Assembly (NCBI GenBank): GCA_001247695.2
Contig: LGRX02033499.1
Coordinates: 47,072-111,071, forward strand
Source: Cymbomonas tetramitiformis
Lineage: Eukaryota > Chlorophyta > Pyramimonadophyceae > Pyramimonadales > Pyramimonadaceae
Direction of reading: 5' to 3'
DNA: 64,000 nucleotides
This document shows, one piece after another, positions 10,134-35,992 of this stretch. Both the position numbers and the translations under genes were made by a program. Within the stretch, counting starts at the first letter, position 1. The number at the start of each line of letters is the position of its first letter. The notes under the pieces are model-generated. The model was not told the DNA's origin. It saw nothing but the letters and a program-made list of their open reading frames with translations, and did not search any database.

Positions 10134-10170
<37 letters not shown>

Positions 10171-13287: not shown

Positions 13288-13350
13288 GAAATATTCACGG
13301 CCGTGAATTTAATATTCACGGCCGTGAATTTAATATTCACGGCCGTGAAT
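13288..13350. repeat. Three tandem palindromes
   Basis: TATTCACGGCCGTGAATT occurs three times in a row. Each TTCACGGCCGTGAA core is self-complementary. Confidence 0.9.
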
Positions 13351-13450
13351 TCCAGATTCGGGAGGGCGTAAACCGTACGTTTATGTGAGAACTGAAGTCG
13401 GCTTGGTTGCAAAGACCTGTCTGGTATTTTCTCTAAGTATTTTCAGACGT

Positions 13451-16976: not shown

Positions 16977-17985
16977 ACACAAGTAGCATGCCGTGGATTC
17001 TCCCAACGGGCACCCTTGTACCGAGTATCGCTCGGAGATGATTTGTAACGATGTTGTGGACTATGAGACCCATTTTTGGGACCCCGATCGATGTCTAAGG
17101 TGCATATTTGAGTTTTGAAGAGAGTTCAGAGCCTAGCAGACAGCGTACCAGTACGCATACACAAGTAGCATGCCGTGGATTCTCCCAACGGGAACCCTTG
17201 TACCGAGTATCGCTCGGAGATGATTTGTAACGATGTTGTGGACTATGAGACCCATTTTTGGGACCCCGATCGATGTCTAAGGTGCATATTTGAGTTTCGA
17301 AGAGAGTTCAGAGCCTAGCAGACAACGTACCATTACGCATACACAAGTAGCATGCCGTGGATTCTCCCAACGGGCACCCTTGTACCGAGTATCGCTCGGA
17401 GATGATTTGTAACGATGTTGTGGACTATGAGACCCATTTTTGGGACCCCGATCGATGTCTAAGGTGCATATTTGAGTTTTGAAGAGAGTTCAGAAGCCTA
17501 CAGACAGCGTACCAGTACGCATACACAAGTAGCATGCCGTGGATTCTCCCAACGGGAACCCTTGTACCGAGTATCGCTCGGAGATGATTTGTAACGATGT
17601 TGTGGACTATGAGACCCATTTTTGGGACCCCGATCGATGTCTAAGGTGCATATTTGAGTTTCGAAGAGAGTTCAGAGCCTAGCAGACAGCGTACCAGTAC
17701 GCATACACAAGTAGCATGCCGTGGATTCTCCCAACGGGCACCCTTGTACCGAGTATCGCTCGGAGATGATTTGTAACGATGTTGTGGACTATGAGACCCA
17801 TTTTTGGGACCCCGATCGATGTCTAAGGTGCATATTTGAGTTTTGAAGAGAGTTCAGAGCCTACAGACAGCGTACCAGTACGCATACACAAGTAGCATGC
17901 CGTGGATTCTCCCAACGGGCACCCTTGTACCGAGTATCGCTCGGAGATGATTTGTAACGATGTTGTGGACTACGAGACCCATTTT
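16977..17985. repeat. 182-bp tandem satellite, about 5.5 copies
   Basis: The block ACAAGTAGCATGCCGTGGA recurs near 16979, 17161, 17343, 17525, 17707 and 17888, so the period is 182 bp (181 once). Copies differ at very few bases. No conserved ORF. Confidence 0.92.
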
Positions 17986-18779
17986 TGGACCTTGATCGAA
18001 ACACCATAGCAAGACCCTACTTTTATGTTATCTTACCAGAGTAACCACTGAGTGTGTAATATGTTAGGAATGTGCGCTGCTATCATTCTGAGTGGGAATA
18101 TAGTGGCCTCTACGTGTTCACATTGAAGTTTAAGAAAGTCGGAAATTAAAAAATCGTGCAGTTGGAGTAATTAGGCTCCAAAATTAATTTTCCTGAAATT
18201 AAATGTGGCAGTGTGTCTGGAAATCTATTGTTTAATAGTAGGGTTGATTCAAATCGGTTCGGCAAGCGGTGTAATACTAGTACGGTCATGCATTAATGTT
18301 AAGATCGATATATTTGATATATACATCACTTTATAACTCGCATGGATCGCAATATCGAGGCAGTTATGGCAATTTGGGTTTGGGTTTGAATGTGGCCAAA
18401 ATGGCATTATTGTGGAGTATGTGACCAGCATTCCGCTTGGGAGGAATGCCATAAATTGTGCAAGCTAAACATGGATCAAACCCCTCAACTCAAAGGACAC
18501 TCATCTATGGCAGTATATCGAATTTTAGAAATGTTAACGAGCTCTATACATTCACATATGCGGTCACCATGCATTGCCCCTGGCCCATATTTTTCCTAAA
18601 TTCACCTAAATTTTTTTTTGAAATTTTTCCGGGAAGCACCTATATTTTCCCTCCCATTTTGAGAAGGCACCTATATTTTTCCTAAATTTCTTTTGCTTTA
18701 AAATGAGCATGCGGGCCCCAAACACTCCCAAATTGAGCCGAAAATCTTTCGTGCGCGGAGGTGCGGAGGTGCGGACGCA
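17986..18779. other. AT-rich spacer, no gene
   Basis: Unique-looking AT-rich sequence. Around 18600-18690 two CACCTATATTTT blocks occur that also appear near 25365 and 25445 in the same orientation, perhaps marking an element edge. Minus-strand frames here come from the downstream repeat. Confidence 0.4.
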
Positions 18780-19180
18780 CGGAAAGAAACGCGGTGAGAT
18801 GTAATAACGCGGTGCGATGTAATAACGCGGTGGGATGTAATAACGCGGTGAGATGGAATAACGCGGTGGGATGTAATATTGGGGCGAGATGGAATAACGC
18901 GGTGGGATGTAATATATTGGGGCGAGATGGAATAACGCGGGGGATGTAATATTGGGGCGAGATGGAATAACGCGGTGGGATGTAATAACGCGGTGAGATG
19001 GAATAACGCGGTGGGATGTAATAACGCGGTGAGATGGAATATGATAAGTGATAAGTGAGCGGTGAAACCAAGAGAAAAGGGAAAAGAGAAAAGAAAGGGG
19101 GAAAAAGAAAAAAGAAAAGGGAAAAGGGAAAAAAAGAAAGAGAAAAAGGAGGAGAAAAAAACAGAGGGGGCGAGGGGGGG
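18780..19180. repeat. 18-bp minisatellite followed by a purine tract
   Basis: 18780-19045: about 14 units of the type ATAACGCGGTGGGATGTA with variants. 19060-19180: almost pure A/G. All long frames on both strands here are repeat-derived (Tyr/Ile/Pro or Lys/Glu runs). The following 19181-19577 is AT-rich with GGATATA/TATATCC repeats and no gene. Confidence 0.85.
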
Positions 19181-19577
19181 AGGGCGTAAGTACGGAGTGT
19201 GCGTAGCTTGCGGAGCCCACGTAGTCGACCCCCCTCTGCCGGGAGGCAACGCTCCGCGAAAATCGGTTTCCTAAAACCCAATATCCTACTAATAGAAAAT
19301 ATATCCGCAGGGTTTATGTCATATCCACCGGATATACAGTATGCTATTAACAGGATATATGATATCGACCGGATATACGATATTAATATGATATATGATA
19401 TGGACGTGTCACCATGTTATCACCTTCACTACATGATCGATCAGTGTGCAAACTGTACAACAAATAAGAAATAACACATAAGAAACAGTAAACAGTAATT
19501 AAGAAACAGTAAGCAGTAATAAGAACTAGTAAACAAGATATACACTTTCAATTCAACGAATTGGGGTTTTCATTATA

Positions 19578-20630
19578 TTACAGCACCCGCTTATTATACC
19601 GAAGCATAAGTGCACTTTGCAGATAGTCTGCCAAGGTGCTGTCCTGGTTCTCTCCGAACATATTTTTCAGCAAAGAGAAAACCCGTTCACATGCACACGA
19701 GTTGGGAGACAGTGAAAAAACTATTCTGGCTGCTTGCCCCCACTTTGGGAGCTTCCCTGCATGCTTCCTCCACCATCCTAACACAGCATCTGTGAAAGCC
19801 GCCACGTCGTTGTTGTCACAACTGAAACCTGCTGCTGCCGCCATGTATTCTGGCAGCTCACCTTCCAGTTCAGCCACCAGTTTGCCACCAGCATGACGTG
19901 CAAGTGGAACAATGGCTGCCAACCTCTGGACCCAGCAGGCATCAACAGCATTCTCCGCAACGAATGACGGGTCAAACAGTTGTGCTACCTCACACACAAG
20001 GTATGCATGCGTGCAATCGTATGATCTATCGCACTGTCCTGTCAACCGCTTCTCGAGATATTGGTAGGCACCCTGTAGCTCTGCGATGGCCCACTGTCGA
20101 AGCTCCTGTCTCGAAACGTTCATCAGCGGTTTCAGCTCAGCAGCCGTCATGGTCTCTGAGTCCCCATCGTCATATGTTATGTGATACACATACTCTGCGG
20201 GGTCTTCCTTATCGATGCTCGATACTCGGCCGGTGAAGGTCCCATAGCCAGGGAACTCTTTCCTAATCGCACAACCCACCTTCAACTCTTGGGCGCGGCG
20301 GATGACCGCATCCACGTTTGGCAACAAGCCCCTGTTCTCAATGTCGTCCACCAAGGCACGCCCATACTTGCGTAGGCTTTCAACACGCCTGTACACAAGC
20401 AATATCTCCAACCGGTCCCCTTCCAGGGCGTGCCAACAGATTTGTCAACCCATCATACCCTGCTGCAAAAGACACCTCCAACCGCAAGGGGTCCGCCTGA
20501 TAAATATCCAGCATCTTGCGTGTGGTGGCATCCCCAACGCCCTCATCTAGTAACCGTTGCAGCAAGACAGGGACGCTGTCGAAGTTCAACGCGATCTCGT
20601 TCTCAACCTCCTGTCTACTCCACCACCTTA
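19578..20630 (-). pseudogene. hAT transposase, C-terminal part with dimerisation region and Tudor-like insert
   Basis: In frame with the N-terminal part at 23974-25250 once the piggyBac-like element is removed: the junction reads GFSNI then RWWSRQEV, the usual hAT motif. A frameshift near 20420 splits the frame. The 277-codon C-terminal segment has a small beta-rich stretch FTGRVSSIDKEDPAEYVYHI followed by YDDGDSE, typical of Tudor/chromatin-reader-like domains in transposases. It then has the hATC dimerisation region (WGQAARIVFSLSPNSCACER followed by VFSLL) with the catalytic-region ERxFS glutamate. Ends at TAA 19578. hAT transposases cut and paste DNA in the nucleus. Inactive as it stands. 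Confidence 0.82.
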
Positions 20631-23600
20631 TGCCTATTCTCCCGGGGGTGGGTTAACCCACCGTAAGAGGGGTTTACGGTGGGTTACCCAACCCTAAGCA
20701 TTTCTCATTTCCCGCGTACTCCGTGCGATAACAGGCGGTTAACCCCATGAAAAATAACAACTAGACACTCATACGGAGCTGTCAAAACCACCAACCACCC
20801 AAGCACGGCTTTGGAAACTCACAAAACTCATGCCGCCAACAACCCAAACCAACAGAAATCCAGAAAAATATGTTGGTCGTTTGCTTTCCGTCCCGGCAGG
20901 TGCCTGTGGTCGGGATTGGGCCCTTCAAGAGTTCGGCGAAAAGTGTAGTGACCCCTTACAATACCCTCTCGACGCGGAGGTAGTAGGCTATGACGCAGGG
21001 AAGGCAGTGAGCAAGCGCTTCACTGTCAAGTTCAAATACGATGGTGACGTGCACGATAAGGCCTTGAAGTTCGTGGAGGAATATCTGGTCGGCGACCCAC
21101 CGGAGAACGAAAGCGACGAAGAGGAGGCACCGACCGAGACTGCCTTAGCTCTTGTTGTTCGCAGTGGCAACGGCTCTGACTCGGCCGACCCAGCATCGCC
21201 ACTTGTTCGCCCTAGGCCTCACAGGAATATTGGCCGGCGTGTTACTGATAGAGTAGCCTCTGTTGTTGAAGATGTTTCTGAAGATGACATGGACGACGCT
21301 GGTGACGACTTGCCGGATGCGCCAGAACATGAACCTGCGCTAGGCGAACTCTTGTTGGGAAAATATTCCTTGGCGTGGACGGAAGCTCCTGTACTTTCTT
21401 GCCAGCGTGAACAAGATGACTTCACTGCAGAGGGTCCCAAAGTTCATTGGCAGCGAGTTTTCGATGCACTGCCAGAGCTCGAGCGCACAACGTTTCTAAA
21501 ATACTTTGGCGTGTTTTTTCCTGTATCTATTCTTCCTTGGTGGTGTGCGCAAATAACTGTTCGAGGCAGGCAGCAGTTTGGAAAGCATTTCCTGAGTGGC
21601 AATCGCGACTTTACACTTGGTTTATTCTTTGTCTTTATAGGGGATTTCTTCTATATGGCAGTCAATCCAGGACTTCCTCGAGAGGACTACTTTAAAGAGT
21701 CTCTTCCTTTCCCTCGACCCTCCCATAACCTCGCACGTTTCGGCTTATCTAAGAAGGATTTTCAGAACGTGATCTCTGTCTTAGAGTTACCAGAATACAA
21801 CTCAGGCTATTCAGCAGCAACTCAGGATAATTCTACGGCACTATTTCGTGAGAAGTGTGGCCCACCGGCGGGGACGCCCTCTCCAGACTTGTTTCGTTGG
21901 GTACGGCGTTTTATCGACACGTGGAATGCTTGGATCCAACACACGTACAGTTCTTCACATCTCTTGAATCCTGACGAAACCATGATACGGTGGTTGTCAA
22001 AATACGGTCTTCCTGGTTTCATGTTTGTCCGACGCAAGCCGGATCCTTTGGGGCACGAACTCAAGTCTGTCGCTGACTGTCTTGTTCGTGTGATGGTGTT
22101 TGTTGAACTACAAGAAGGCAAGGATCGCGACCGCTTGAAACGCTACTGCGCTGAGCATGGTGCAACCACTTCTTTTCTTCTGCGAGTCGTTGACGGTATG
22201 GAACTGCTGGGAAAGGGCAAGGAATTTTATGCTGACTCGTGGTTTGGCAGTGTGAAAGCTGCGGTATTATTGCTAGAGCGTGGTAACTACTTGAAAGCTT
22301 TAGTGAAGACCAACACTAAGTTTTACCCTCTTGCAGCACTGAAGGGCCTTGCTGAGAATGTTGACATCTCCACGCACAGTACACGTGCTGTCTCCCTTGT
22401 CACGGATGTGATGTTGGACACAGGTCGAAGGCGCATATTCGCTGTCTATCACAAGGGCCCTGCACAGAGCGTGCTTCCGATGATCGCCAGTTGCGGAACA
22501 ACCTTACCAGGTGACGTCAGAGTATATGACGCCCACCAGAAGCTCTCCACAGGGGAGCGCCGCATCACACAGAGGGAGTGTAAACAACCTGAGGTGGCCT
22601 GCGACTATCGCAAACGTTTTCATGTTGTTGACAATATCAACCAGGCCACAAACCAGACTGAGCGTCTCGACGAAGCGTGGAAAACACACTACTGGCCGCA
22701 CCGAGATTTTGCAAAGTTCGTGGGCATATCCAAGGTTAATGCATGCCATGCCTGGCAATATTTTGATGCTTCTGCAAACGGAATTCCTGCGGCCGATCGC
22801 AACCGACACTTTACAGAGGGGTTTCTTTGCGAGCTGTTTAATAACCCGTTTTTGAAACCGACCGATATGCGGAAAGGTGCAGAGCTCGAGGAGAGTGGTG
22901 TGCCCACTCGTCTCTCTCCCTCGTCAGAGTTGGTGCGGGATCTCTTTGTGTCCCCAGCGCCGACTGCTCGTGGTTCTGAGCAAGGCGGGCAACTTGCACT
23001 CGTGAGCGCTGCAGAGGCTACTACTCTGGCAGCTGGCAGTGAAGAGGTGGAAGCTCCTGCTGTTTGTTTTCTGACGGGTATACCAGGTGGGCACGCGCAA
23101 AAGTGCACTGTTCCTGAGTGCAAAGCGCAGTGCTACTCAGTATGTGGACGGTGTCACACCCCCAACCGCCATGCCTGGCTGTGCGGTGCCAAGACTCACA
23201 GAGACTGCTTCCAGAAACACGTCGCACGTGTGGCGGAGGCAGGGAAGAACTTCACACCGAAGCGCAAACGAGTTGCCAACCTGGTCAACAAGGCAGAGGA
23301 ACTCAAACGTGCCAAAGCGCGCGCTGAGCGCTCTGTGGAGGAGGCCAACTTAGCAGCAGAGCAGGCTCGCGCAGCGGCTGAGGCTTTGCGTGACCTTATG
23401 GAAGAGTCGTAGGCTGTACAATTATTTTTCGTTGGCATATTACACCTTCTTGATTTAAACTTTTGTGTTATAGTATGCTTAATATGTTAGTACACGAGGT
23501 AGAAGGTAAAAGAACTTACCTTGCATATAACGAGTATTTCTTCTAGAATTCACATGATATTTGGCTGTATACCCAAATATGGATTCGTGCGAGCGAGGTT

Positions 23601-23973
23601 AGATATAGTGACTTTGGGCATGCATGTGATAAATCGTGATGCCTCAACACATTATTGAACCTTAAAAAATCTTAACATGCCATCAGAGATGAGGTGTATA
23701 GCCTAGGTGAACCTACCAATACGTCCGGTTTTTGGTAACCCACCGTAAGCAATTGCCTGAACCCACCAGTCGACCCTACCGACTTGGCATAGCATTTTCA
23801 TGAACAAAATCAATCGGAGTGCATTATATTATGGTATCTACGGTCGAAAGCACTCATAATAGTTGTCCCAAGTCATAGGTTCGATGCCTCAACTCGATTT
23901 ATGCATGAGTTATAGGCCATTCAAAATTGCTCTTACGGTGGGTTAACCCACCGTAACCCCGGGAGAATAGGCA
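20631..23973 (+). mobile_element. piggyBac-like DNA transposon
   Basis: Ends TGCCTATTCTCCCGGGG inverted at both sides; subterminal ACGGTGGGTTAACCCACCGT palindromes. Flanked by CTTA (20627-20630 and 23974-23977). Removing the element with one CTTA restores the hAT codons. The duplication is CTTA rather than the canonical TTAA of piggyBac. One complete transposase ORF lies within. 23413-23973 holds no gene, only AT-rich DNA and the right-end repeats. Confidence 0.88.
20830..23412 (+). CDS. piggyBac-like (DDE_Tnp_1_7/PGBD type) transposase, 860 aa, intact
   Basis: Single open frame, ATG 20830 to TAG. N-terminal: a chromatin-reader-like stretch (EVVGYDAGKAVSKRFTVKFK) and an acidic region. Core piggyBac signatures: LNPDETMIRWLSKYGLPGFM, FVRRKPDPLGHELK, then FYADSWFGSVKAAVLLLERG, matching the family's DE..., NKP.K.GIK and DN-F-S motifs that carry the first two catalytic aspartates. 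A VDNINQATNQTERLDEAW block precedes the final helical part HRDFAKFVGISKVNACHAW. C-terminal: a Cys/His-rich region with CTVPECKAQCYSVCGRC and CGAKTHRDC, the cross-brace zinc ring common in this family, then a charged coiled coil. The third catalytic residue could not be placed with certainty. The gene is unbroken, so recent activity is plausible. Confidence 0.88.
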   Translation: MPPTTQTNRNPEKYVGRLLSVPAGACGRDWALQEFGEKCSDPLQYPLDAEVVGYDAGKAVSKRFTVKFKYDGDVHDKALKFVEEYLVGDPPENESDEEEAPTETALALVVRSGNGSDSADPASPLVRPRPHRNIGRRVTDRVASVVEDVSEDDMDDAGDDLPDAPEHEPALGELLLGKYSLAWTEAPVLSCQREQDDFTAEGPKVHWQRVFDALPELERTTFLKYFGVFFPVSILPWWCAQITVRGRQQFGKHFLSGNRDFTLGLFFVFIGDFFYMAVNPGLPREDYFKESLPFPRPSHNLARFGLSKKDFQNVISVLELPEYNSGYSAATQDNSTALFREKCGPPAGTPSPDLFRWVRRFIDTWNAWIQHTYSSSHLLNPDETMIRWLSKYGLPGFMFVRRKPDPLGHELKSVADCLVRVMVFVELQEGKDRDRLKRYCAEHGATTSFLLRVVDGMELLGKGKEFYADSWFGSVKAAVLLLERGNYLKALVKTNTKFYPLAALKGLAENVDISTHSTRAVSLVTDVMLDTGRRRIFAVYHKGPAQSVLPMIASCGTTLPGDVRVYDAHQKLSTGERRITQRECKQPEVACDYRKRFHVVDNINQATNQTERLDEAWKTHYWPHRDFAKFVGISKVNACHAWQYFDASANGIPAADRNRHFTEGFLCELFNNPFLKPTDMRKGAELEESGVPTRLSPSSELVRDLFVSPAPTARGSEQGGQLALVSAAEATTLAAGSEEVEAPAVCFLTGIPGGHAQKCTVPECKAQCYSVCGRCHTPNRHAWLCGAKTHRDCFQKHVARVAEAGKNFTPKRKRVANLVNKAEELKRAKARAERSVEEANLAAEQARAAAEALRDLMEES

Positions 23974-25250
23974 CTTATGTTGGAAAACCCCACCATTGCA
24001 GTCCCTGTTAACGCCTTCCACATCTGCGTCGCGGTGTTGTTATTCTGTACGAGAATCAACCAGGAGGTCATAAACTCACGCTTCTCAGGGAATCCCACGC
24101 GATCTCCAGTGTTGTTTAATGTGTGGGATATACACAGCAAGTCAGTGGCGCTGGGGAATGTCACCAGCAACCTGGCAGTGGCTGTGCCATTCACTTTGAC
24201 TGAATCACGTCCAAACCCACTGACTGCCTCAAATGGCAACCCAAGCTCATGAGCCACAAGCGTTGTCAAGGTAGTGCTCAGAGCCGCGTTATCAGGGCTG
24301 GCATTCAGGGTGACGAACTGCACAAGACGCTGAATTAAATTGAACTCCACGTCACAAAATCTGGCGACAGTATTCAAGGCCTCACCAAGTCGCCTAGTTC
24401 CATCAAACATGAAGAATACGCTCTGACCCTGAAGCTCGTGATGAAGATGTTCGAACTCCAAGCTCTCGATCTTCGGAACATACTGGCGCAAGTGCTCAGA
24501 GCCAGTCAGCTTGATGGCAGCGCGCTCCAAAAGTGGACGTAAATAGTCACCCTTAGATATAGGCACCCCAGCAAATAATAGACTCTCAGTCACACGATAC
24601 CGATATAGATGAACCTCCGGTTCCAAGCCGGCAGTCGCCTCGTCGTTGTGCGCCGTAAAGTACTCGGTCAAAACATCGGTGATGTGCGCGTCATCTTGAC
24701 GTTGCTGAACATACTTGTCCTTGGCGAGGGAGTGCTTGGCGCTGGAGACATGGGTCTTCACAGATTGCTTGAGGAGGGACAACTCCTCCTTGCAGCACGA
24801 GCAAAATAACTTCCCACCCGAGATGCGCAAACAATGGTTGGGGAACTCCTTCAATCTTTGAGAAGGCTGAATCTTCGGCTCCTTCGTTATGCGGATACCC
24901 CCTCCTGCACGCTTTGTGCCACTAGGGGGTTTTTTCCTAATAGTTCTATCTCTTTCATGCGCAGCCAGAGCTGGGCCATCAGTATTTCCGCTGGCGAGAT
25001 GAGGACCACGCTTTCGCTTGAACTGGTCGAACGCGTTGGTGAGGGGTTGGGAGCGGGTGCGCTCGTACGCAAGCTCAAGCCTCGTAGGCGCACGCTCATC
25101 GTCATGTCGTGTGTCACCCGACGAGAAAGACTGCATATCCAAATGGACTGGGCGGAGAGTTGGAGCTGAGTCTGAATCTGATCCTCCATCGGAAGAAAAA
25201 TAATCGGCCACGAGAATATTTTCCTGAGTCCTGAGGTCTTTGGTCTTCAT
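23974..25250 (-). pseudogene. hAT transposase, N-terminal part with BED-type zinc finger
   Basis: Frame from ATG 25250 to the piggyBac-like insertion. Residues 1-130 are acidic then basic. Around residues 140-175 is a BED-like zinc finger (CSCCKEEL...VKTHVSSAKH, C-x2-C...H-x4-H). The catalytic core then shows the first Asp in VFFMFDGTRRLGEAL and the second in GFGRDSVKVNGTATARL. It is interrupted after GFSNI at 23978. The C-terminal half is at 19578-20630. Together about 740 residues, a normal hAT length. Confidence 0.82.
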
Positions 25251-26001
25251 GGTGTGATCGTGTGAAGGTTTGGAGGCGGAGAAAGAGGTTTACAGTAGAG
25301 GTTTGAGCAGTCAGATCGCCGATGACAAATCGCAGTTTGGCGGGGTATTCTCAATTTACAGCGCCTATATTTTTCAAAATTTCCCCAGTGTTAAGGGGAA
25401 AATGACCGAACGGTGATATCGCTTTTAAAATTTCCCTACGAAGCACCTATATTTTTCAAAATTTTGACATTTTTTTTGGCCAAAATTCTGACCTATATTT
25501 TGAATAAAAATTTTAAAAATTCTGGCCAGGCCCAAACCATGCACCCACATATGACGTGCACCATATGGACGGTGACTATGGAAATCACGAATTTTTCTGT
25601 ATTTGATGAGCGCGGCCCACATCACCACGTGTTTTGAGCCCCAACCTTTATCATAATAGCATGCAACGTAGCACACGTTCGAACAAGGTCCCAATAATGT
25701 TGGGCACCGCTTTACTCGACATCCTAGGCCCATTAACAGCACCTAACAACACATCTAGTCGAAAGTACTTGTGACAGTACTTTCAGAAATTAATTATTTT
25801 CTGGTTTTTCACACCCTAAAAGTATGCTATAAATATACCAACCTAAACTTGATAACGGCACGTGTGAGTCATTTGGGAAATTAAAAAGGGTCGTAAATGA
25901 ATTTTCAAAAATGTTAAACGACCCATATCACCAAGTATACCGGATATCACATAGTTTTAGCAAAGTACTTGTAATAGTACTTTCCCGCCGGGTAATAGCC
26001 A
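25251..26001. other. AT-rich right end of the 9.5-kb element
   Basis: No gene. Contains CACCTATATTTTTCAAAATTT twice-type repeats (near 25365 and 25445) and, near 25760-25985, paired AAGTACTTGTGACAGTACTT and AAGTACTTGTAATAGTACTT palindromic blocks that mirror the left end at 16530-16585. Confidence 0.5.
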
Positions 26002-26005
26002 TGGA

Positions 26006-28298
26006 GAAGCGGTCAGAACCAGTGGAACCCCGACGCGCCCGAGGACGCAGAGACCCTTGGGGCCAACGCCCCCATCCCAAGAGCGTGGCCTTCACCTCTG
26101 GGACCCGCTTGCGACGCACCTACCGCTCAGCTAGTGCCCCATCGCCGCCGAGGGATGACTTGTCCAGCCACCCTCTTGTAGGAAGCACCCCCTTCGATGA
26201 GCCGTCACTACCTCTTGATGACGGCCCTGCTTATACACAAGCGAGGATCGAGGGTCGGAGGGGACGGCGAGCCCCCCGACACAGACCCCCCACTATGGGC
26301 AACAACCGCGGAGAGCCCCGCGATCTTCGCCCCCGACCGCGTGTTGTCCTACCGCTGCCCATCTATCAGTCCAACCTCGCAGACCCACGGAAAAGGCTAA
26401 CTGCGTGGCACTGGAAGAGAGATCTGTACTCCCTCCCCCTCGAAGTCGCCATGCAGAAGGTCCGCAGAGCTCTGCGCAAGTCCCCAGAGGCTGCCAAGGA
26501 CCTGGTGGATAAAATGTCGGAGCGCGTCCGCAGCCGCGTACACTCTGGGAGTCGATCGCCAAAGGAGCGCGTGAACCGCGCCAACCAGCTGGCAGAGAGG
26601 ATACGCATTGCCCGCGAACCTCAAGATCGCAAGGAGGGCCATCAGCGCATAGCATTGTGGCATCTCCTCTCACACGACGGTCGCCAGCAAGTCCCCGAAC
26701 CCTCTAACGCCAGCTCCCACGACCTCTACGCGGCTTGGAGAGAGCTGTCGCCCGCCGAGCAGCAAAAGGCAATCGCCACTTCGAGTCCAGACTCTTCCCC
26801 AGGTAGCAGGCTGTGGGAAAAGGAGGGCGCACGAAGAGCAGCAGCGAGATCTTCGACATCCCTCTGCACCCTGGACACTGAAGTGGGCACGATACCTGGG
26901 ACAGCGGGAGATGTGGGTCTACCTGGCGCCTGGTGCAGTCTGCACGCAGTACACCAGTACAAGATGAGGAAGCTGGGTCCCAGCCCCTTGGGAGCATCCC
27001 CTCCATCATCCTCGCTGGCCGAGCCCACAACAGAGACTACATCTTCGCACCATGATGACGCGCCGGCCACTCCGGGAGGAAACCCCGAAGGTTCATCCTA
27101 CTGCTCAGAGGCGGAGGAGACCTCCGCACCCAGTTCGCTTTGCTTCACCCAGCAGATGACCACCGTCAGAACGCACGAAGCGGATGAAGCGCCGCCCTGT
27201 CTCGACAGCCACCCCATCGCTGAAGACCCTGAGGTGATGGAAGAGGAGTCCTCGGTCAATTCGCTCTGCTTCACCCAGCAGATGGCAGCAGCTGGGACCC
27301 CTGAGACGAGAACTGACCACCAGAGCTCCCACCAACTCGCCCACAACTCCCCTGCTGGCAGCCCTCAGCATGACGAGGATCCTCTCACCCATGGCAGTCT
27401 CATCAATAGTGTCGCTACCCATGTGAGCCCCACAACAAGCGGCACTACCCACGTGAGCCCCACAGTAAGCGGCACTACCCATGTGAGCCCCACCACCAGT
27501 GGCACTACTCATGTGAGCTCTACTACCAGTGACACCACCCATGTGAGCCCTACCACCAGCGACACCACTCATGTCAGCCCCACCTCGAGCGAATGCACCT
27601 CAGCGGGCACCCTGCTGACGGCGAGTGTAGACAACCTCGTCAGTCATCCGACTGAAGATGTTGATTTGCTGGATGAGGAGTTCTACGCCGCGTGTAGGCA
27701 AACGTTGGAAGAATGCCGCGAGGCCTCGGACAACCTCCTCCCCAACCTCAAGTGCAAAAGCATACGCACAGATGGGGGAGTTCAGTGGAAGACCGACATC
27801 GAGGGTACCCTTGCAGCGGCACATGACGAAGAAGGACCGCTACTGCTGGTATTCTACGCAACCCTCAGAGGGCACACGGTCAAGGTGCTGATCGACTCGG
27901 GGGCCTCTGACAACTTCATCTCGGAGCAGAGCGCTAAGCGATGTGGCCTCACGACACGAGCCGGCTCCGAGATGCGAGTCACCCTGGCGGATGGATCTGT
28001 GAAGATCACTGGCGCCACCGCGTACGCCAAGTTTAACACGCACACCACCACGGGCACCTATACGGAGAACGCCCGTTGCCCTCCGGATCCTACCACTGGG
28101 CATACAGGTGGCTGCGCAGTCACTCTCCTGTCACTCTGGGCTATGAAGGGAATGGCTCCGTCTCCTTCCTCAGGAAGTCCCGCAGTGGTAAGATTGGGGA
28201 TCGCGTCACCATCACAGGCTGTTCTCCTGGGAAAGCATCTGGGGACAGGTCTCCGAAGGGCACGGCCTGCGCGGGATTGGTGGATGAGGTGTTCCTAA
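26006..28298 (+). CDS. Ty3 pol, segment 1: linker and retropepsin-type protease
   Basis: Frame continuous with gag beyond its TGA once the TIR insertion is excised. Residues up to about 600 are a long basic then Ser/Thr-rich linker with an imperfect repeat THVSPTTSGT (about 27420-27590) and twice a SLCFTQQM block. The aspartic protease follows: VKVLIDSGASDNFISEQSAK with the catalytic Asp codon at 27894. The plausible frame leaves this ORF near 28080 by a one-base shift; the tail to 28298 is out of frame. The protease would mature Gag-Pol inside the particle. Confidence 0.82.
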
Positions 28299-28630
28299 CC
28301 CCTGCCCAGCTGAAGAAGTACCTGGTGTACGCGGAGACGCAGAAGCTACGCGGCAATGACGACCCGGAGATACAGCCCGCCTGGCTCATGGTGGCCGAGA
28401 AGTCCCCCGACGATACCGCTTCTGCCTTTGCAGCCACGGCCATCGACTCTGAGAACGCCGAACCCACTGCGGATACTGAAGATGCAGAAGTGAGCCCTGA
28501 GTGGACCCTCAAGTTTCAGGACTTCTGGGGTGAGGAGTACAAAAAGGAGATGACGACTGCCCTACCGAACATCGATGGACTCAGACATGACCCCAAGATG
28601 AAGCCAACATTAACCTGGACCCTGAGCTGA
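28076..28630 (+). CDS. Ty3 pol, segment 2: end of protease and connector
   Basis: Continues the protein in the next frame (SYHWAYRWLRSHSPVTLGYE...), then a linker (LTPAQLKKYLVYAETQ, acidic stretch, LKFQDFWGEEYKKEM). The frame shifts again near 28597 to enter reverse transcriptase. Either real frameshift mutations or single-base assembly errors; the sequence alone cannot decide. Confidence 0.6.
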   Translation: MPSGSYHWAYRWLRSHSPVTLGYEGNGSVSFLRKSRSGKIGDRVTITGCSPGKASGDRSPKGTACAGLVDEVFLTPAQLKKYLVYAETQKLRGNDDPEIQPAWLMVAEKSPDDTASAFAATAIDSENAEPTADTEDAEVSPEWTLKFQDFWGEEYKKEMTTALPNIDGLRHDPKMKPTLTWTLS

Positions 28631-30390
28631 GCAAGAAGGGGCCTCCCTGCCAGCGCATCTACAAGAAGTCTGCAGAGGAACTCCGCCAACTTCGAGAACG
28701 CGTGGAGACTCTGATGTCCAAGGGCTACATCCGACCCTCTTCCAGTCCTTATGCAGCTCCCTGTTTGATGGTCCCTAAACCCGGGAACCCCAAGGAGCTG
28801 CGACTGGTGATCGATTACCGGCTCCTCAACCGCCAGACAGTTAAGGACAAGTATCCTCTCCCAGACATCCAGATGATGTTCGACGAGATGCAGGGTGCGA
28901 AGTTCTTCTCTTCGTTCGACGCGGTGGATGGCTTCTGGCAAGTACCGATGGCACCAGGAGATGTCGAGAAGACCGCCTTCACCACCCAGATGGGGTCATA
29001 TGAGTGGTTGGTCATGCCGCAGGGGCTGCAGAATTCACCGTCTCAGTACCAGCGACGGATGCAGCGGGCCTTGGGCCATCTCCCATTTGTCCGGATCTTC
29101 ATCGATGAGGTGGTCGTCTTCAGCAACACCGCTGCAGAGCACTACGAGCACGTCAAGCAACTGCTCCTGACATGCAGGGAGAAGGGCGTCTTCCTCAAGA
29201 GGTCCAAGTGCCAACTGTTGAAGAAATCCTTGCGGTTCCTTGGCCACTGTATCTCCGCAGATGGCTGCAGACCCCAACACGACAAGGTGGCTGCAGTGAG
29301 GGACTGGCCCGAGCTGGAAACGGTTACCCACGTCAGGCAGTTCTTGGGCCTGGCGGGGTATTACCGCAGGTTCATCCACTGCTTCTCCGAGATCGCTCAG
29401 CCCCTCACCCGGTTGACCAAGTCGGACGTACCCTGGGAGTGGGGTCCTATGCAGCAGTGGGCCTTCGAGGAGCTGAAGAAGGCCCTCACCTCAGCGCCAG
29501 TGCTCGCCTTGCCCAACATTAAGGGTGCCGCAGACGGCACGGCACCTTTCGTGGTACAGACGGATGCTAGCGGCATCGCTCTTGGGGGAGTACTGATGCA
29601 AGACAATGGAGATGGTCTTGGACTGCGCGTGATAGCATACGAGAGCCGCCAGTTCTCAGCCGCCGAGCAGAATTACCACACCGGCGAGCGTGAGCTAGGT
29701 GCTCTACACCATTGTACCACCGTTACCTGGCGGCATTACCTCATCTTCACCAACTTCCGCATCCAGGGTGATCACCGCCCCCTTGAATGGCTGATGGAAC
29801 CTGACAGGGAGCTTAGCCGCAGACAGGCGCGCTGGTACATGGATCTGGTGGAGGTGGGAGTCCCGAGAATGGAGTACATCAAAGGAGCGCTGCTGCTGGT
29901 ACCGGACGCCCTGTCCAGAAGACCCGACTTCAAAGACAAGGACGTGCGTGAGGGGTTGAAGGAGGCAGGGGCGATCGACCCCACCTCAGATCTACCGAAA
30001 GACCCCCTGGCAACGCTGGAGTCTGAATACTTCTCCAGCTCACCACCCGCAGCTCATCCCCACTGGGCCCAGACTGTTGACTGTTGGCTCTCAGCAGTGG
30101 AGACCCTCTCCGTGGCGGAACAGGCCATGGACATGGGGGAGACCATCGCTCTTGTTAACCCGAAGCTCTATAAGGGAATGAAGGAGGATCACCTCGACTT
30201 CGACATGCCTGACTGGCCTGCAGCTGATAGCGCAAAGCCGGTAGAAGCTCCACACAAACCCCCTGATAGAGCCCCACCCCAGATAAGGATAACGAGGAGT
30301 ATGTCACGCGCTGGGAAGGCCTCTATCTACGACCCCAGCGCCTCCACAGTTGGCGTCACCGAAGACGCGAACGCCTACGTCACGAGCTGA
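28597..30390 (+). CDS. Ty3 pol, segment 3: reverse transcriptase and RNase H
   Basis: All Ty3 reverse transcriptase blocks appear in order: LMSKGYIRPSSSPYAAPCL, LRLVIDYRLLNRQTVKDKYP, FFSSFDAVDGFWQVPM, YEWLVMPQGLQNSPSQYQRR, VRIFIDEVVVFS, LRFLGHCIS, RQFLGLAGYYRRFI. The usual Y/F-x-D-D catalytic pair reads F-I-D-E (codons 29104-29109), an Asp to Glu change. RNase H: VVQTDASGIALGGVL, YHTGERELGAL and GDHRPLEWL with the expected acidic residues and His. A connector leads into the next segment, with a frame change near 30350-30390. It would copy the RNA genome into DNA, and activity may be reduced by the E substitution. Confidence 0.93.
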   Translation, partial: DEANINLDPELSKKGPPCQRIYKKSAEELRQLRERVETLMSKGYIRPSSSPYAAPCLMVPKPGNPKELRLVIDYRLLNRQTVKDKYPLPDIQMMFDEMQGAKFFSSFDAVDGFWQVPMAPGDVEKTAFTTQMGSYEWLVMPQGLQNSPSQYQRRMQRALGHLPFVRIFIDEVVVFSNTAAEHYEHVKQLLLTCREKGVFLKRSKCQLLKKSLRFLGHCISADGCRPQHDKVAAVRDWPELETVTHVRQFLGLAGYYRRFIHCFSEIAQPLTRLTKSDVPWEWGPMQQWAFEELKKALTSAPVLALPNIKGAADGTAPFVVQTDASGIALGGVLMQDNGDGLGLRVIAYESRQFSAAEQNYHTGERELGALHHCTTVTWRHYLIFTNFRIQGDHRPLEWLMEPDRELSRRQARWYMDLVEVGVPRMEYIKGALLLVPDALSRRPDFKDKDVREGLKEAGAIDPTSDLPKDPLATLESEYFSSSPPAAHPHWAQTVDCWLSAVETLSVAEQAMDMGETIALVNPKLYKGMKEDHLDFDMPDWPAADSAKPVEAPHKPPDRAPPQIRITRSMSRAGKASIYDPSASTVGVTEDANAYVTS

Positions 30391-31258
30391 CGCATCGGAG
30401 GCGCTCACTGAGAAGGTGCCAACGAGCTCACCAACCCCGCAGCAGGCGCCCCAACAGTCAACTCCATCCCCGGTCCTTCACCCACAGAAACGGCGGGCTC
30501 CCCCAGAGGACTCACAGAATTGGCGTGTCCGAGCAGAGTACTCCTCGAAGTACGCCGAGAAATTTGGACCCTTCGATGTGGACGCCTGTTGTGACTTTGG
30601 CGGCCGCAACAGACAGGCGGATAGATTCTGGACAGACTGCCTTTCAGAGAAATGGAGGGGCCTTCGGGTTTGGTGTAACCCTCCATACAACTCCAAGTGC
30701 ATTACTGTGGAGGCGATCTTGAACAAGTATATCGCAGAATGGAAGGCAGACCCAGAGAACACCTCAGCAGTATTCGTTCTACCAGATCATCAGTCCAAGC
30801 TCCCCGCGTGGCGCAAACTTTTCAGAAAGGCCAATATGCAGATTGTGGAGGTCATCCCTACTCACGATGACAAAGGCGAGCCCAACCAGTTCTTCGAGAA
30901 CCCAGATGGGAGAGCCTTCGACCTTCGCTGGCCTGTTCTGATAGTACACGCCCCTCCCGCCAAACCACAACCAGCACGCGTGAGGCATCCGCGAACAGCC
31001 CCCGCTGTGATAAGGACAGGTGAGGCGGCAGACTTCAGAGACGCAGCCTCCCAGCAGTCAGACTCAAAGTTCCTGCGCGCGTTGAAGGCGGAGTACACCC
31101 GAGAGGGGACACTTCGTTCACTAAGAGAGAAAGTGAAGGCAGCACCACACCAATGCCTACAGGACTTCAGGCTGGTGGGTGAAGTGGTTTGGAGAACCGC
31201 AGCAGGGAGATATCATATCAGTTGGTGCTGGGGGAGGACTCTCCACTTCGGGAAGTAG
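30350..31258 (+). CDS. Ty3 pol, segment 4: Dam-like DNA adenine-N6 methyltransferase domain
   Basis: Between RNase H and integrase. Residues 57-205 match the phage-type Dam family (N-6-adenine-methyltransferase) in order: WRVRAEYSSKYAEKFGPFDV, DACCDF, a NRQADRFWTDCLSEKWRGLR stretch, the catalytic VWCNPPYNS (NPPY at residues 110-113, nt 30677-30688), then VFVLPDH, and FFENPDGRAFDLRWPVLIV. The NPPY motif, which binds the flipped adenine, is intact. DIRS retrotransposons are known to carry a Dam-like domain, but this is a Ty3-type element with a DDE integrase, so the pairing is unexpected. An N6-methylase acting on the element's own DNA or the host genome is an inference. The frame shifts into integrase near 31190. 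Confidence 0.85.
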   Translation: MASPKTRTPTSRADASEALTEKVPTSSPTPQQAPQQSTPSPVLHPQKRRAPPEDSQNWRVRAEYSSKYAEKFGPFDVDACCDFGGRNRQADRFWTDCLSEKWRGLRVWCNPPYNSKCITVEAILNKYIAEWKADPENTSAVFVLPDHQSKLPAWRKLFRKANMQIVEVIPTHDDKGEPNQFFENPDGRAFDLRWPVLIVHAPPAKPQPARVRHPRTAPAVIRTGEAADFRDAASQQSDSKFLRALKAEYTREGTLRSLREKVKAAPHQCLQDFRLVGEVVWRTAAGRYHISWCWGRTLHFGK

Positions 31259-33522
31259 TGATTCGCCATGTTCATGAGTCATTGTCCTCAGGCCACACTG
31301 GGCGAGACAAGACTCTGGAGAGGGTGCTGCGACGCTTCTATTGGCGTGGTGCCGCGGAAGATGTGGGCACCTGGGTTGCATCCTGCGCAGTGTGCCAATC
31401 AGTGAGGCCGCGGGGAACTTACGCGGATGGGTTGCTAAACCCTCACAGCATCCCGAACAGGCCATGGCAGGATGTCGCGGTGGACTTCGTCACCGGCCTG
31501 CCGGTGTCAGAGAGAGGCAATGATGCTTTCGTGGCCTTCACCTGCAAGCTGACGAAGATGGTCCACGTTGTGCCGATGAACTTCGGCGACAGCTCCGCAG
31601 CTGTGGTAGCCAGAATCTACTTTGACTCGGTGTGGCGCTTACATGGCGCGCCTATGAAGATTGTCTCTGATCGTGACCCACGGTTTCAAGATGCTTTCTG
31701 GCAGGAACTCATGAGACTGATGGGTGTGAAAGTGGCTCGTACCACGCCGTACAACCCTCGGTCTGACGGCCAGGCGGAACACAGCAACAGGGTTATTGAG
31801 GACATGCTCAGGTCCTTTGTAGACGCCAATGTGGAGGACTGGGATTTGTTCACCACTAACGTGGAATTCGCGATCAATGACTCCAGGAGTGAATCTACTG
31901 GCTTCACGCCATTTGAACTGGTGTTCGGGTTCTCGCCGCTGTCGCAGTTGGACCTTTTCCTGGAGGCCGCACAGTCCACCGCTGGACGACGAACTGGGGG
32001 AGTAGGCACCGCACACGAAGTGGCTGTGAAATTTTCGTCGCAGCTGCGGGACGCCAGACAGCGGTTAGAGCTGGCTCAACAGCGACAGCGCGAACAGTTT
32101 GATCGCAGACACGGGCAGCGGGAGTATGCTGTTGGAGATCTGGTCTGGATAGAGGCGAAACACCTTACGGAGAAGGTGATGGATCGCTCCATCTGTAGGA
32201 AACTGACCAAGCGCTGGCATGGACCAGTTCCGGTGACCGAACGCTTCTTCAGCGATGTACAGATGGCCATGCCAGAAGCCGACAGAGGAGCTCCAGTAGC
32301 CTACCGCCTACGCCTCCCTCCTCACTGGCGGATTCACGACGTGTTCGCTCAACATCGCCTCAAACCGTACACCAGCGGACAAGATGCTTTTGCCGCACGC
32401 GATCACCTAGCAGTACCTGAAGAGGTGGTAGTGGACGGTCAGAAGGAAGCACACGTTGAGCGCATTCTTGCACGTCGAGTGCGGTCTGTTCGAGGAAAGG
32501 AGGTGGAAGAGTGGAAGGTTCGCTGGACTGGCTACTCCAAAGCTCACGACCAATGGAGGACGCGTGACAAACTTGAACGCGGAAGTCCACTTCAACAACT
32601 TCGTGAATTCGAGCAAGCGAGACTCCACATGGAAGCGCAAGTACGCGACGAAGCCACTCGGCGACGCGAGCAGCGTGGCCGTCACTCCGCTCAAGCCGGA
32701 ATGACACTGGCCCACCTCATCACTAATCCCTGCGATGAACTAGACCAGCTCGAACAGATGGAAGATGATATCCCCCTGCCGTGGGAACGCCAAGAGCGTG
32801 TGGAAGATGGGTCGTTGGCACTGGTGACAGAGCTGCTGGCAATACAGGCAAAAACAACCCGCACGCCCAGGATTCTCGTACTTTTCAGCGGTACTGGCTC
32901 AGTAGAGAGGGAATTCCTAAATTGCTTCCCCTCCGCTTCAGTAGTGACCCTCGACTCCGGGCATATCTGGCAACCCACTCATGTGTGTGACATCCTGCAA
33001 TGGGACTACAGACAATACCCGCCTGGATTCTTCGATGTTGTTTGGGCAAGTCCCCCCTGCAGGCAGTACAGTCAAGCGCGCACCACTGGTGGACCCCCTG
33101 ACCTTCCCCAGGCTGACAAAATCGTACGACGAGCATTGCAGATCATTGACTACCTGGAGCCAAAACATTGGTTCATGGAAAACCCCAGAGGTCGCTTCCC
33201 TAACGCGCTACGGCTTCGCCCTATGATGCGCCAGCTTCCCCCACCGCTGGTGTGTACTTACTGCATGTACGGTACTCAGTACATGAAACCCACCTGCATA
33301 TGGACGAACTCAGCACCACCCTCGCCCCTGCTACGCTGTACTACTTCAACACCGTGTGCGTGCAGATGGGCAACCGGTGCTCACCCAGAGACTGCTCAGC
33401 TTGGACCTCACCCGCAGCAGACTGGAGCAGGTCGATCTGCAAGTGTATATCCCGTGCCAGCACCCCTGCTACGACAACTTTTCCGACATCTACGCCTCCG
33501 CGACACTGAAGACCCGCTTTAG
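31189..33522 (+). CDS. Ty3 pol, segment 5: integrase, GPY/F-like region, chromodomain and C5-cytosine methyltransferase
   Basis: 777-codon open frame. Integrase: HHCC zinc region (VIRHVHESLSSGHTG ... CAVC), catalytic D99 (AVDFVTG), D161 (SDRDPRF) and E197 (DGQAEHSNR) with D-35-E spacing. A GPY/F-like KLTKRWHGPVPVTE follows. Chromodomain around residues 420-470: HVERILARRVRSV ... EEWKVRWTGYSKAHDQW, expected to target chromatin. C5-methyltransferase from about residue 560: motif I LVLFSGTGSVEREFL, motif IV FDVVWASPPCRQYSQAR with catalytic Cys624, motif VI WFMENPRGR (E664), then CMYGTQYMKPTCIWTN and a final YPVPAPLLRQLF resembling motif X. All key residues are present, so cytosine methylation is plausible. 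The fusion to an integrase polyprotein is unusual. Confidence 0.92.
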   Translation: MENRSREISYQLVLGEDSPLREVVIRHVHESLSSGHTGRDKTLERVLRRFYWRGAAEDVGTWVASCAVCQSVRPRGTYADGLLNPHSIPNRPWQDVAVDFVTGLPVSERGNDAFVAFTCKLTKMVHVVPMNFGDSSAAVVARIYFDSVWRLHGAPMKIVSDRDPRFQDAFWQELMRLMGVKVARTTPYNPRSDGQAEHSNRVIEDMLRSFVDANVEDWDLFTTNVEFAINDSRSESTGFTPFELVFGFSPLSQLDLFLEAAQSTAGRRTGGVGTAHEVAVKFSSQLRDARQRLELAQQRQREQFDRRHGQREYAVGDLVWIEAKHLTEKVMDRSICRKLTKRWHGPVPVTERFFSDVQMAMPEADRGAPVAYRLRLPPHWRIHDVFAQHRLKPYTSGQDAFAARDHLAVPEEVVVDGQKEAHVERILARRVRSVRGKEVEEWKVRWTGYSKAHDQWRTRDKLERGSPLQQLREFEQARLHMEAQVRDEATRRREQRGRHSAQAGMTLAHLITNPCDELDQLEQMEDDIPLPWERQERVEDGSLALVTELLAIQAKTTRTPRILVLFSGTGSVEREFLNCFPSASVVTLDSGHIWQPTHVCDILQWDYRQYPPGFFDVVWASPPCRQYSQARTTGGPPDLPQADKIVRRALQIIDYLEPKHWFMENPRGRFPNALRLRPMMRQLPPPLVCTYCMYGTQYMKPTCIWTNSAPPSPLLRCTTSTPCACRWATGAHPETAQLGPHPQQTGAGRSASVYPVPAPLLRQLFRHLRLRDTEDPL

Positions 33523-33699: not shown

Positions 33700-33713
33700 A
33701 AGGGGGGGAGAGT
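33700..33713 (+). promoter_or_regulatory. Polypurine tract before the Ty3 3' LTR
   Basis: AAGGGGGGGAGAGT directly abuts the LTR start at 33714: the expected plus-strand primer. Confidence 0.8.
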
Positions 33714-34395
33714 TGTGCCCGGAGGCACAGCGTGAGCCGATATGCCTATGCGTCCGTATGTGTGTCATCGGGGGTAATCTGGGATTGGCACGATGACAGT
33801 GAAATTGGGCTTGAAATCACGATGAGAATGAATACCAGATGTCCGGGGTATGACAGTATGACACTATGATAGTATGATAGTATGACACTATAGTAGTATG
33901 ACAGTACTGTGGGGAGTGTCATCGTGGAACTCAGTCAGACCCTCGAAGAATGGTCAGATTCGCATCGGGGTTGAAAAGACAATGAAATCGAATATCAGAT
34001 ATTAAGGTTATGACAGTATGACAGTATGACGCTATGACAGTATGACAGTATGACAGTACAGTAGTATGACAGTACTGTGGGGCAGTCATCGTGTCAGCCT
34101 GTCGGCATAACATCTGAATCGAGAATGATGAATCGGAATTAGAAATGAGATCGGATCGGGAACTGAACGTTGAGCCGAAGTGTGACATCGGCTCTCGAGT
34201 GGTTGACCCTGCAACCTGAGTGACGAGTGAATAAGTAGAGCACTTGAGAAGTGTTTAGCCTTCAGAACTCGGAACCGAATTATCGTTTGTACCTCAATCT
34301 GGCCCTGATCCAGTATATTATAAAATCCGAATTGTGTACCTTTGCACGTTCAATCAAAAACATATTTCCGAGCATCTGTCGTAGTGCCCCAGGCA
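33714..34395 (+). repeat. Ty3 3' LTR
   Basis: 682 bp, matching 7771-8461 apart from a few substitutions and a short indel in the TATGACAG array. Confidence 0.93.
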
Positions 34396-35576
34396 AATAT
34401 GGTGTCAGCAGACGGCGGGTCGAGAGACGGGCGAGGCTGAGCCGGCTTGGACGTGACGAGGTGCTTGTTGTTGGCGAATGCCTCGATGCACACGTAGGGG
34501 CAAGCACCACGAGTGTCGGGATGAGCATCTGTGACACCCCACACGCGGAAACAGACAGCACACGGATAACCAGTACCAGACCACTTAAGGTATAAGGCAG
34601 TGGGGGTTTCGGCCACCCACTTCCCATCAAGCGGCGTGTCGGACTGCTTCTTCGCGCGGAGTGCCATGGCCGTAGGGCGGCCGGGCGGGTCAGGGGTCTG
34701 GGGCTTCTGGGTGGCGGTCTTAGGGCGGTACCCAGAACCCTCGGAGCGAGTGTCGGGGGTCGGCGGGGACGAAAGTGTGGCCAGGGGGCTTTCGTCCCTA
34801 AATGCGAGACGGATGCGGAGCGCGAGGCGGTCAAAAGTAAAGAGATGACCTGACCGTAATTCGCGGAGCACCACCAGGTACAGTGGGGCGACGTACGGAC
34901 TCTTCTTGGCGGACTCGGACAGGATGTGCCAGAGGTCAGCAACGCGGTCGGAGTCGGAGTACGCAGGCTTGAGCTTGTGGTGACGCTCACAAAGGCGTCG
35001 AATCGTAGCCAGCTGTGGAGCTGGGTCTACGGTCTCAGAGAGGACGATGGCCCTCATCTGGGTCCAGTAGCGCATACCATCGGCGTCGGGCACGCCCTCG
35101 ACCTCGTAGCGAAGTCGCTGGAGTGCATAGCGGCCGTCAGCGGGATGGGTGCGCGCACACTCGTGGTAGACAGATAATGCGTTACCACGAAGGGGGTGAG
35201 GCAGGAGGCAGAACAGGATCTCGTTCACAGTAGAGTGGTAGAACTCGTAGTCGTGCTCCAGGTCAAGCAGCTTGGCCGACTCCGCGTACGAGATCGGGAA
35301 CATGACGTGAGCCAGTCCAGCGGTGAAGGCAGCGAAGTCAGCGTCGGCGGTGTCGTTGTCAAGGGTGTAGCCAGCGGGAAGTTTGAAACCAGTGGACTTG
35401 AGGAAGCTCACGAGGTCACTCCCATACGTAAAAGCGTAAGAAAGTTGTTCTCGAAACTCCTCCTCGCGGCCCTCCTCCACAGGCGTAGTCACCAAAATGT
35501 CGGGGTCATTGAAGAAATCAAAAGCTGTTGGAGCTTCAATCGTTGATGTCGGTGGAAGCGTGGTGGGCCCATAACC
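34396..35576 (-). pseudogene. G2 gag, N-terminal and central part
   Basis: Open minus-strand frame entering from the 5' LTR and cut at 34396 by the Ty3 3' LTR. It is homologous to the gag at 38947-41032: paired blocks such as LSETVDPAPQLATIRRLCER / IDETVDPAPQLAVFRTLAGK and SPYVAPLYLVVLRELRSG / SPYITPLYLVVVRDLSDG. A possible zinc-binding motif C-x2-C...H...C-x3-C (PCAVCF, then CPYVC) is shared with that copy. The likely role is particle coat protein of a non-autonomous element. The start codon is uncertain because the frame is open into the LTR. Confidence 0.72.
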
Positions 35577-35835
35577 TGATGTGAAAGCTAATAATATAGT
35601 AATATATAAGCTTGCACTGTGAAATGTCAAGGCAGTGAGGCAGGGTTTCTCGGTTCGGCTAAAGTCAGATTAAACTGGGAGATACACAGTTTTAAGCTAG
35701 CGGACGGACCGTGACACTGACACACGAGCGGAGATAGACAGCAGGCACTGCAAGTGACATCCGAGCAGGCGAGGGGTGACACAGGGCACCACTGACCTCC
35801 CCCCTTATGGGGGGTGAGAGTCAGTGTTCCCATGA
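35577..35835 (-). repeat. G2 5' LTR
   Basis: Matches 7090-7348 without indels. GACTT follows at 35836-35840. Confidence 0.9.
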
Positions 35836-35992
35836 GACTTCCTGCCAGATCTCGGGGTCAACTCCGGTGCAGTTCAGTCTTCTGTCAGTAATCTTCTTCT
35901 CAGGAAGGACATTGATGTACCACCTTGCAATCTTTTTCTGCGTCCCACTCCAGTCATGAGCAGGAAAGTCTTGGCTCGGAGGATAACGATAA
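35836..35992 (-). pseudogene. 5' part of the ORF split by G2
   Basis: In frame with 6647-7089 once G2 and one GACTT are removed. It encodes a stretch containing DWSGTQKKIARWYINVLPEK. Upstream (beyond about 35992) the sequence becomes LTR-derived and has stops, so the true N-terminus is lost. Function unknown. Confidence 0.45.

Follow-up and report, generated by a model that had tools for sequence, protein, structure and literature searches.

Methyltransferase genes captured by transposable elements have been described one enzyme at a time. C5-cytosine methyltransferases were reported in long interspersed nuclear elements (LINE), DIRS, and Gypsy elements, and Dam-like enzymes were noted in DIRS elements (PMC5890265); likewise, DAM was recorded in DIRS elements and DCM in Ty3/Gypsy and DIRS elements (PMC6338049). 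These and all following statements on published systems refer to the portions of the cited papers covered here. The present analysis concerns a stretch of 64,000 nucleotides from Cymbomonas tetramitiformis (contig LGRX02033499.1, positions 47,072 to 111,071 of the forward strand; hereafter, the window), in which a Ty3/Gypsy long terminal repeat (LTR) retrotransposon carries both a Dam-like, putative N6-adenine methyltransferase domain and a C5-cytosine methyltransferase (C5) domain.

KnitGypsy-Dnmt3 of Klebsormidium nitens (de Mendoza 2018, PMC5890265) resembles our element in being a Gypsy LTR element with a C5 enzyme in its Pol open reading frame (ORF) and in showing purifying selection; however, its enzyme is a Dnmt3 and Dam goes unmentioned in the portion covered, whereas the C5 domain here matches a phage family and stands together with a Dam-like domain. 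DIRS1-like elements (PMC3266345) and SymbioDIRS-Dnmt3 (PMC5890265) also combine a methyltransferase with reverse transcriptase (RT) in pol, placed behind RT and ribonuclease H (RNase H) in DIRS1, but they encode a tyrosine recombinase rather than a DDE integrase, have different termini, and carry one methyltransferase each. The Chlamyvir-related chromoviruses of C. tetramitiformis itself (PMC10675990) share the Ty3/Gypsy LTR organization and the chromodomain pol; by contrast, the main text of that paper has 0 occurrences of the string "methyl". Another algal transposon, Sola1-1_Ec32 of Ectocarpus (PMC12477816), encodes a DNA methyltransferase of prokaryotic type, but it is a DNA transposon with a single enzyme (predicted N4C or N6A) and a ParB-like domain. 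No element with both enzymes appeared in the portions covered of PMC12344493, PMC12695648, PMC3266345, PMC12477816, PMC10675990, PMC5348765, and PMC8885841. The supposition of the initial annotation that a dual-enzyme LTR element is undescribed agrees with the best-ranked results from the open-licence literature, among which no such report was found; Repbase reports and subscription papers lay outside that scope.

Results

The methyltransferase-bearing part of the element comprises five long coding segments (25833–33522; frames 3, 2, 1, 2, and 1 in a stop-to-stop translation), all on the plus strand, in which Pfam domains follow the order aspartyl protease, RT, RNase H, Dam, H2C2, rve, SH3_Tf2-1, chromodomain, and DNA_methylase. 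The frame 3 segment (26001–28298) contains the rest of gag, a spacer, and the aspartyl protease (27858–28007; PF13650, 35.3 bits), and the protease end and RT leader continue in frame 2 (28037–28630; tblastn matches of the related proteins P0064, P0065, and P0071 from 28106 on). These are followed by the RT domain (28771–29247; RVT_1, E = 3.5e-31; active site FIDE), RNase H (29539–29850; PF17917, E = 7.7e-28), the Dam-like domain (30503–30952), and the H2C2 zinc-binding domain of the integrase (31240–31413; PF17921, E = 2.5e-17). The DDE integrase core (31459–31758) was listed as rve at E = 3.3e-5, under the Pfam cut-off, and its DDE residues were read in the translation at what we take to be their expected places. 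The top-scoring stretch of a Tf2-1-like integrase SH3 domain (32290–32370; PF24626, E = 6e-9) precedes the chromodomain (32452–32613; PF00385, 30.0 bits against a cut-off of 25.1), which lies behind the integrase and before the C5 domain (32848–33510; PPC at 33052–33060, ENP at 33178–33186). The pol order proposed in the initial annotation, from protease through an NPPY-bearing Dam-like domain and a DDE integrase to a C5 domain with PPC and ENP, was therefore matched by both Pfam and motifs.

Paired LTRs bracket this region. The 5′ LTR (7771–8461, plus strand, 691 bp) and the 3′ LTR (33714–34395, plus strand, 682 bp) both begin with TGTGCCCGG, match at 98% in blastn, and differ by 2 mismatches over 682 aligned bases, plus gaps, in a global alignment. 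The element therefore spans 7771–34395, with the methyltransferase-bearing feature as its 3′ part; the interval 26006–33522, originally taken as the feature, holds as the 3′ coding part but not as the whole element, which also includes two nested insertions. A putative primer binding site, TGGTATCA (8466–8473, plus strand), was read from the sequence 4 bases inside the 5′ LTR, presumably resembling the initiator methionine transfer RNA (tRNA), and a polypurine tract, AAGGGGGGGAGAG (33700–33712, plus strand), was read directly 5′ of the 3′ LTR. The LTRs, primer site, and polypurine tract, the protease-RT-RNase H-integrase order, and the chromodomain behind the integrase identify a chromovirus-like Ty3/Gypsy chromodomain element. 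A DIRS element was rejected, given the H2C2 and rve integrase and the LTRs; when the five coding segments were scanned with Pfam, no tyrosine recombinase was found.

The Dam-like domain scored to PF05869 above the curated cut-off (33.5 versus 28.1 bits) and has the NPP[YF] motif, here NPPY at 30677–30688. This segment matched phrog_111, annotated as a DNA methyltransferase in PHROGs (E = 5.3e-12), and its predicted-structure model matched a phage N6-adenine methyltransferase in BFVD (E = 2.6e-8), whereas the model had no match in PDB at E 0.001 or better in Foldseek and a PDB profile search with the Dam alignment (A2) returned nothing. A tblastn comparison with phages gave 3 records at 24% identity. 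The domain thus shares a profile match, NPPY, and a similar predicted fold with the phage family PF05869/phrog_111, whose members are stand-alone phage proteins, unlike the pol-embedded domain here. On these grounds, the domain that separates RNase H from integrase is of phage type and a putative N6-adenine methyltransferase.

The C5 domain of the window copy scored 20.8 bits to PF00145, just under the cut-off of 22 (25.8 bits in its relative P0018), so that the expectation that the domains would score to their families was borne out above the cut-off for Dam and by sub-threshold listings for PF00145 and rve. The catalytic cysteine, the ENP/ENV motif, and the S-adenosylmethionine (AdoMet) loop are present. 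The segment matched phrog_757, annotated as a DNA methyltransferase (E = 1.6e-17), and 13 phage records at 28–33% in tblastn. A C5 profile built from the family gave 156.5 bits to the prokaryotic locus L028, from a Thaumarchaeota metagenome-assembled genome (MAG), and 138.2 bits to the viral locus L001 of IMG/VR, both loci having been chosen with the same alignment, as against 27.9 bits or less for PDB chains, with DNMT2 first. These phage and prokaryotic enzymes (phrog_757, L001, L028) share the motifs of the element, including ENP and YC.YG..K.T.IWTN, but are stand-alone frames of approximately 210–220 amino acids, unlike the C5 domain of the element. The PDB comparison listed 32 matches at E up to 1, including DNMT2 and DNMT1, and none named DNMT3, M.HhaI, or M.HaeIII. 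Capture of the C5 domain from a host DNMT is not favoured by these sequence comparisons. However, M.HhaI and M.HaeIII were equally unmatched and DNMT3A/B rank first for the predicted structure, so that a host donor keeps some probability; the enzymes compared were PDB chains and prokaryotic and viral frames. One viral contig (L052) has adjacent Dam-like and C5-like frames (33.8 and 29.6 bits to the Dam and C5 profiles, respectively), and a contig of this kind is a possible joint donor of both enzymes.

Used as protein search queries, the Dam frame (17 matches), the C5 region (41 matches among 7995 candidates scored, namely those sharing the most words), and the Dam region of P0038 (38 matches, 29 of them new) yielded 87 distinct proteins altogether; 52 bear C. 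tetramitiformis (CYMTET) names and the remainder come from JGI, ENA, EukProt, or other sources. The closest to the C5 region of the window were P0018 (JGI; 99%) and Cymbomonas proteins at 92–94% over 71–73% of the region, which makes Cymbomonas or a near relative the probable host. With family profiles made here, 60 of the 87 proteins matched Dam, 52 matched C5, and 26 matched both, Dam preceding C5 in all 26. Near-complete Dam (at least 130 of 172 positions) and long C5 matches (at least 120 of 226 positions) occurred in one chain in 13 proteins, comprising seven Cymbomonas gene models and six JGI or ENA entries, which are taken to be metagenomic. P0064 (ENA, 2077 amino acids) is a single protein whose Pfam series starts with protease, includes Dam (42.6 bits), and ends with DNA_methylase (20.0 bits, under the cut-off), and the divergent P0085 (2142 amino acids) has the same domain order with Dam at 27.8, chromodomain at 23.3, and DNA_methylase at 18.0 bits, each under its cut-off. 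In P0087 (ENA), a Ty3-type polyprotein, Dam lies ahead of protease and RT, a placement suggestive of another, separate capture or of movement of the domain.

A profile search of genome contigs with the C5 alignment (A1) gave five loci; single-protein scans of viral contigs with the window proteins found no relative. Contig L027 has an uninterrupted frame of 1255 codons running from the RNase H end through Dam (NPPY), H2C2, integrase, and chromodomain to C5 with PPC and ENP. Its Dam domain scored 27.5 bits against the cut-off of 28.1, and with DNA_methylase absent at E up to 0.1, its C5 assignment is based on the family profile (295.2 bits) and the motifs. This contig is titled Verrucomicrobiaceae bacterium TMED86 MAG, with the retroelement at 1–3768 and a further ORF at 4097–6655 that matches otubain weakly (16.9 bits, under the cut-off). 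Since it carries a retroelement of this lineage, L027 is probably a eukaryotic element mis-binned with bacteria. Judging from these sequence sources, the lineage is known from C. tetramitiformis and environmental sequences. A single Ty3-type LTR element bearing both domains, as originally proposed, is thus supported by the bracketing LTRs and by recurrence of the order in relatives.

Comparison of the window copy with L027 showed amino acid identities of 39% for Dam (138 codons), 43% for H2C2 plus integrase (229), 49% for C5 (202), and 40% for the chromodomain (60). At shared residues, four-fold degenerate sites were identical at 5 of 22 positions in Dam (23%), 18 of 45 in H2C2 plus integrase (40%), 16 of 50 in C5 (32%), and 5 of 11 in the chromodomain, where agreement by chance would be approximately 25%. 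Amino acid identity has been retained while four-fold sites diverged; therefore, the Dam and C5 domains are both under purifying selection. Among the 13 proteins, mean pairwise identity was 54.9% for Dam (66 pairs), 54.5% for C5 (21 pairs), and 75.4% for integrase (78 pairs), compared with 18.6% for the RNase H-Dam linker (28 pairs) and 37.1% for the chromodomain-C5 linker (55 pairs), the pair sets differing between domains and linkers; the Dam-H2C2 linker (46.3%, 78 pairs) and the integrase-SH3 linker (63.6%, 78 pairs) stand out less clearly. Distance matrices of 15 sequences were correlated between Dam and integrase (0.876), C5 and integrase (0.882), and Dam and C5 (0.909), and values of 0.86–0.95 were obtained without the two most distant sequences, with 0 of 5000 permutations reaching each value in both analyses. 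This constraint, together with divergence matched to that of the integrase, indicates that both enzymes have been passed on with the element and kept under constraint as components of it.

The window copy itself has four frame changes in its coding part (25833–33522), despite the near-identical LTRs, whereas P0064 and L027 are uninterrupted; the copy is therefore damaged or contains assembly indels, and part of the frame changes may be assembly errors. Its RT active site reads FIDE, in contrast to FIDD in six related proteins (those pattern-matched). With the frame breaks and the altered active site, the window copy is probably inactive or no longer autonomous.

The 5′ part of the element contains gag in two pieces, both on the plus strand. 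Gag part A, the first ORF (9720–11641), was located by tblastn of P0078 (residues 1–554 at 86%, 9720–11438) and P0024 (94–95%, 10902–11641), and part B, with a CCHC knuckle (14998–16510; zf-CCHC, 18.3 bits, under the cut-off of 20.8), by tblastn of P0024, P0063, P0067, and P0071. Between them lies a DNA-transposon-like insertion (11658–14928) with terminal inverted repeats of approximately 550 bp that are 99% identical; tblastn matches of P0078 flank it on both sides, P0078 being a Cymbomonas gene model that might bridge it by an intron. The second insertion (16517–26000) has a 13-bp terminal inverted repeat, GGCTATTACCCGG, and piggyBac-like and hAT-like ORFs, and is flanked by matches of P0071 (residues 11–76 at 16235–16510; residues 74–710 at 25992–28073), likewise a Cymbomonas gene model that could bridge the insertion by an intron. 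Within it, an open 860-amino acid ORF encodes a piggyBac-type transposase (20830–23412; DDE_Tnp_1_7, 73.4 bits), and a minus-strand ORF (19578–20411) combines a Tudor domain (PF21743) with a hAT dimerization domain.

A short target site duplication is usual for LTR elements, but it is not seen in every old or recombined copy. By eye, no matching 5 bp flank the element (AGGAG at 7766–7770, AATAT at 34396–34400), possibly due to loss by recombination. The whole element is bracketed by a 262-bp direct repeat (7090–7351 and 35577–35838; 99.6%), perhaps the LTR pair of a short element into which the present one inserted, and beside it lies a minus-strand ORF of 426 amino acids (34350–35630) without a Pfam match. 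Elsewhere, the window contains tandem arrays at 16976–18003, 52185–52880, and 63206–64000 (units of 182, approximately 101, and 260 bp, respectively) and a spacer-free palindrome at 55256–55655 with two 200-bp arms that are 98% complementary. A tRNA scan found none.

Discussion

In its relatives, this lineage encodes two conserved enzyme domains in one polyprotein, with C5 behind the integrase chromodomain. We consider the chances about even that this is a Ty3/Gypsy chromodomain lineage with two captured methyltransferases in pol that it releases and uses on its complementary DNA (cDNA) or insertion site. In a fuller version, put forward tentatively, the lineage captured two phage-type enzymes, kept both through a divergence in which their synonymous positions fell almost to chance agreement, and writes N6-methyladenine (6mA) and 5-methylcytosine (5mC) on its own cDNA and insertion site, the C5 mark being aimed by the integrase and chromodomain. 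The protease would free Dam near RT and RNase H, as well as an integrase-chromodomain-C5 protein. Dam would then act on double-stranded cDNA inside the particle, and C5, tethered via the integrase and chromodomain, would methylate the cDNA ends, the insertion site, or both. New copies would thus arrive pre-marked. This would shield them from nucleases or have them treated as silent DNA resembling that of the host, and so favour coexistence with it. There is a precedent in retrotransposon DNMTs that methylate CGs de novo (PMC5890265). As put forward in the initial annotation, copies or host chromatin may carry two marks. Base composition, read as a possible trace of methylation, pointed clearly in neither direction.

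Several observations set the two enzymes apart. The C5 catalytic cysteine was found in 45 of 45 rows and ENP in 41 of 41 rows covering each site (55 rows in total), whereas the 61 Dam rows comprised 41 with NPPY or NPPF, seven with another motif (SLSS in P0066, P0068, and P0069, SPPS in P0037, and three more), and 13 not covering all four columns. Moreover, P0050 has an intact C5 beside a decayed Dam remnant (hhalign probability, 92.9); the N-terminus of P0047 could not be tied to Dam by hhalign (probability, 1.2). Because the C5 residues are invariant while the Dam motif varies and the Dam of P0050 has decayed, C5 seems to be the less dispensable enzyme, with Dam kept in most copies but open to loss. 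These patterns would suit the idea that C5 alone matters and that the Dam-like domain is a relic, now serving between RNase H and the integrase as a structural spacer or to bind nucleic acids. We regard this as unlikely, albeit worth serious attention, since the motif is retained in two-thirds of the Dam rows and persists in the distant P0085 and L027, and the 39% identity to L027 with only 5 of 22 four-fold sites shared indicates constraint on the domain.

It is rather improbable that the Dam-like domain methylates RNA, such as the element transcript or its cap region, leaving C5 as the only enzyme that writes on DNA. We are more doubtful still that the enzymes serve the host or the element against other genetic parasites as an antiviral or anti-transposon layer; Morozov and colleagues proposed such a role for the accessory domains of retrotransposons (PMC6338049), and viral elements abound in the genome of Cymbomonas (PMC10675990), but a link between the element and virus resistance found no support here, and the enzymes co-diverge with the integrase as element parts. 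An assembly chimera or chance juxtaposition at one locus, to which the frame changes of the window copy and the PF00145 score just under the cut-off might point, was rejected and has almost no probability left, given that the same order recurs in 13 of the 87 proteins, which come from several sources and include the single-chain P0064, and in L027 without a frame break, and that near-identical LTRs bracket the whole element. Further copies with this architecture, whose absence would have spoken for a chimera, therefore exist.

Cymbomonas is an alga that eats bacteria, and the matches of both domains to phage methyltransferase families suggest that marking enzymes of eukaryotic elements may have come from prokaryotic viruses or from bacteria. 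Single captured methyltransferases are known, and an LTR element combining two marking enzymes of different chemistry appeared nowhere in the literature covered, making this element a testable case for the control by a retrotransposon of its own epigenetic state.

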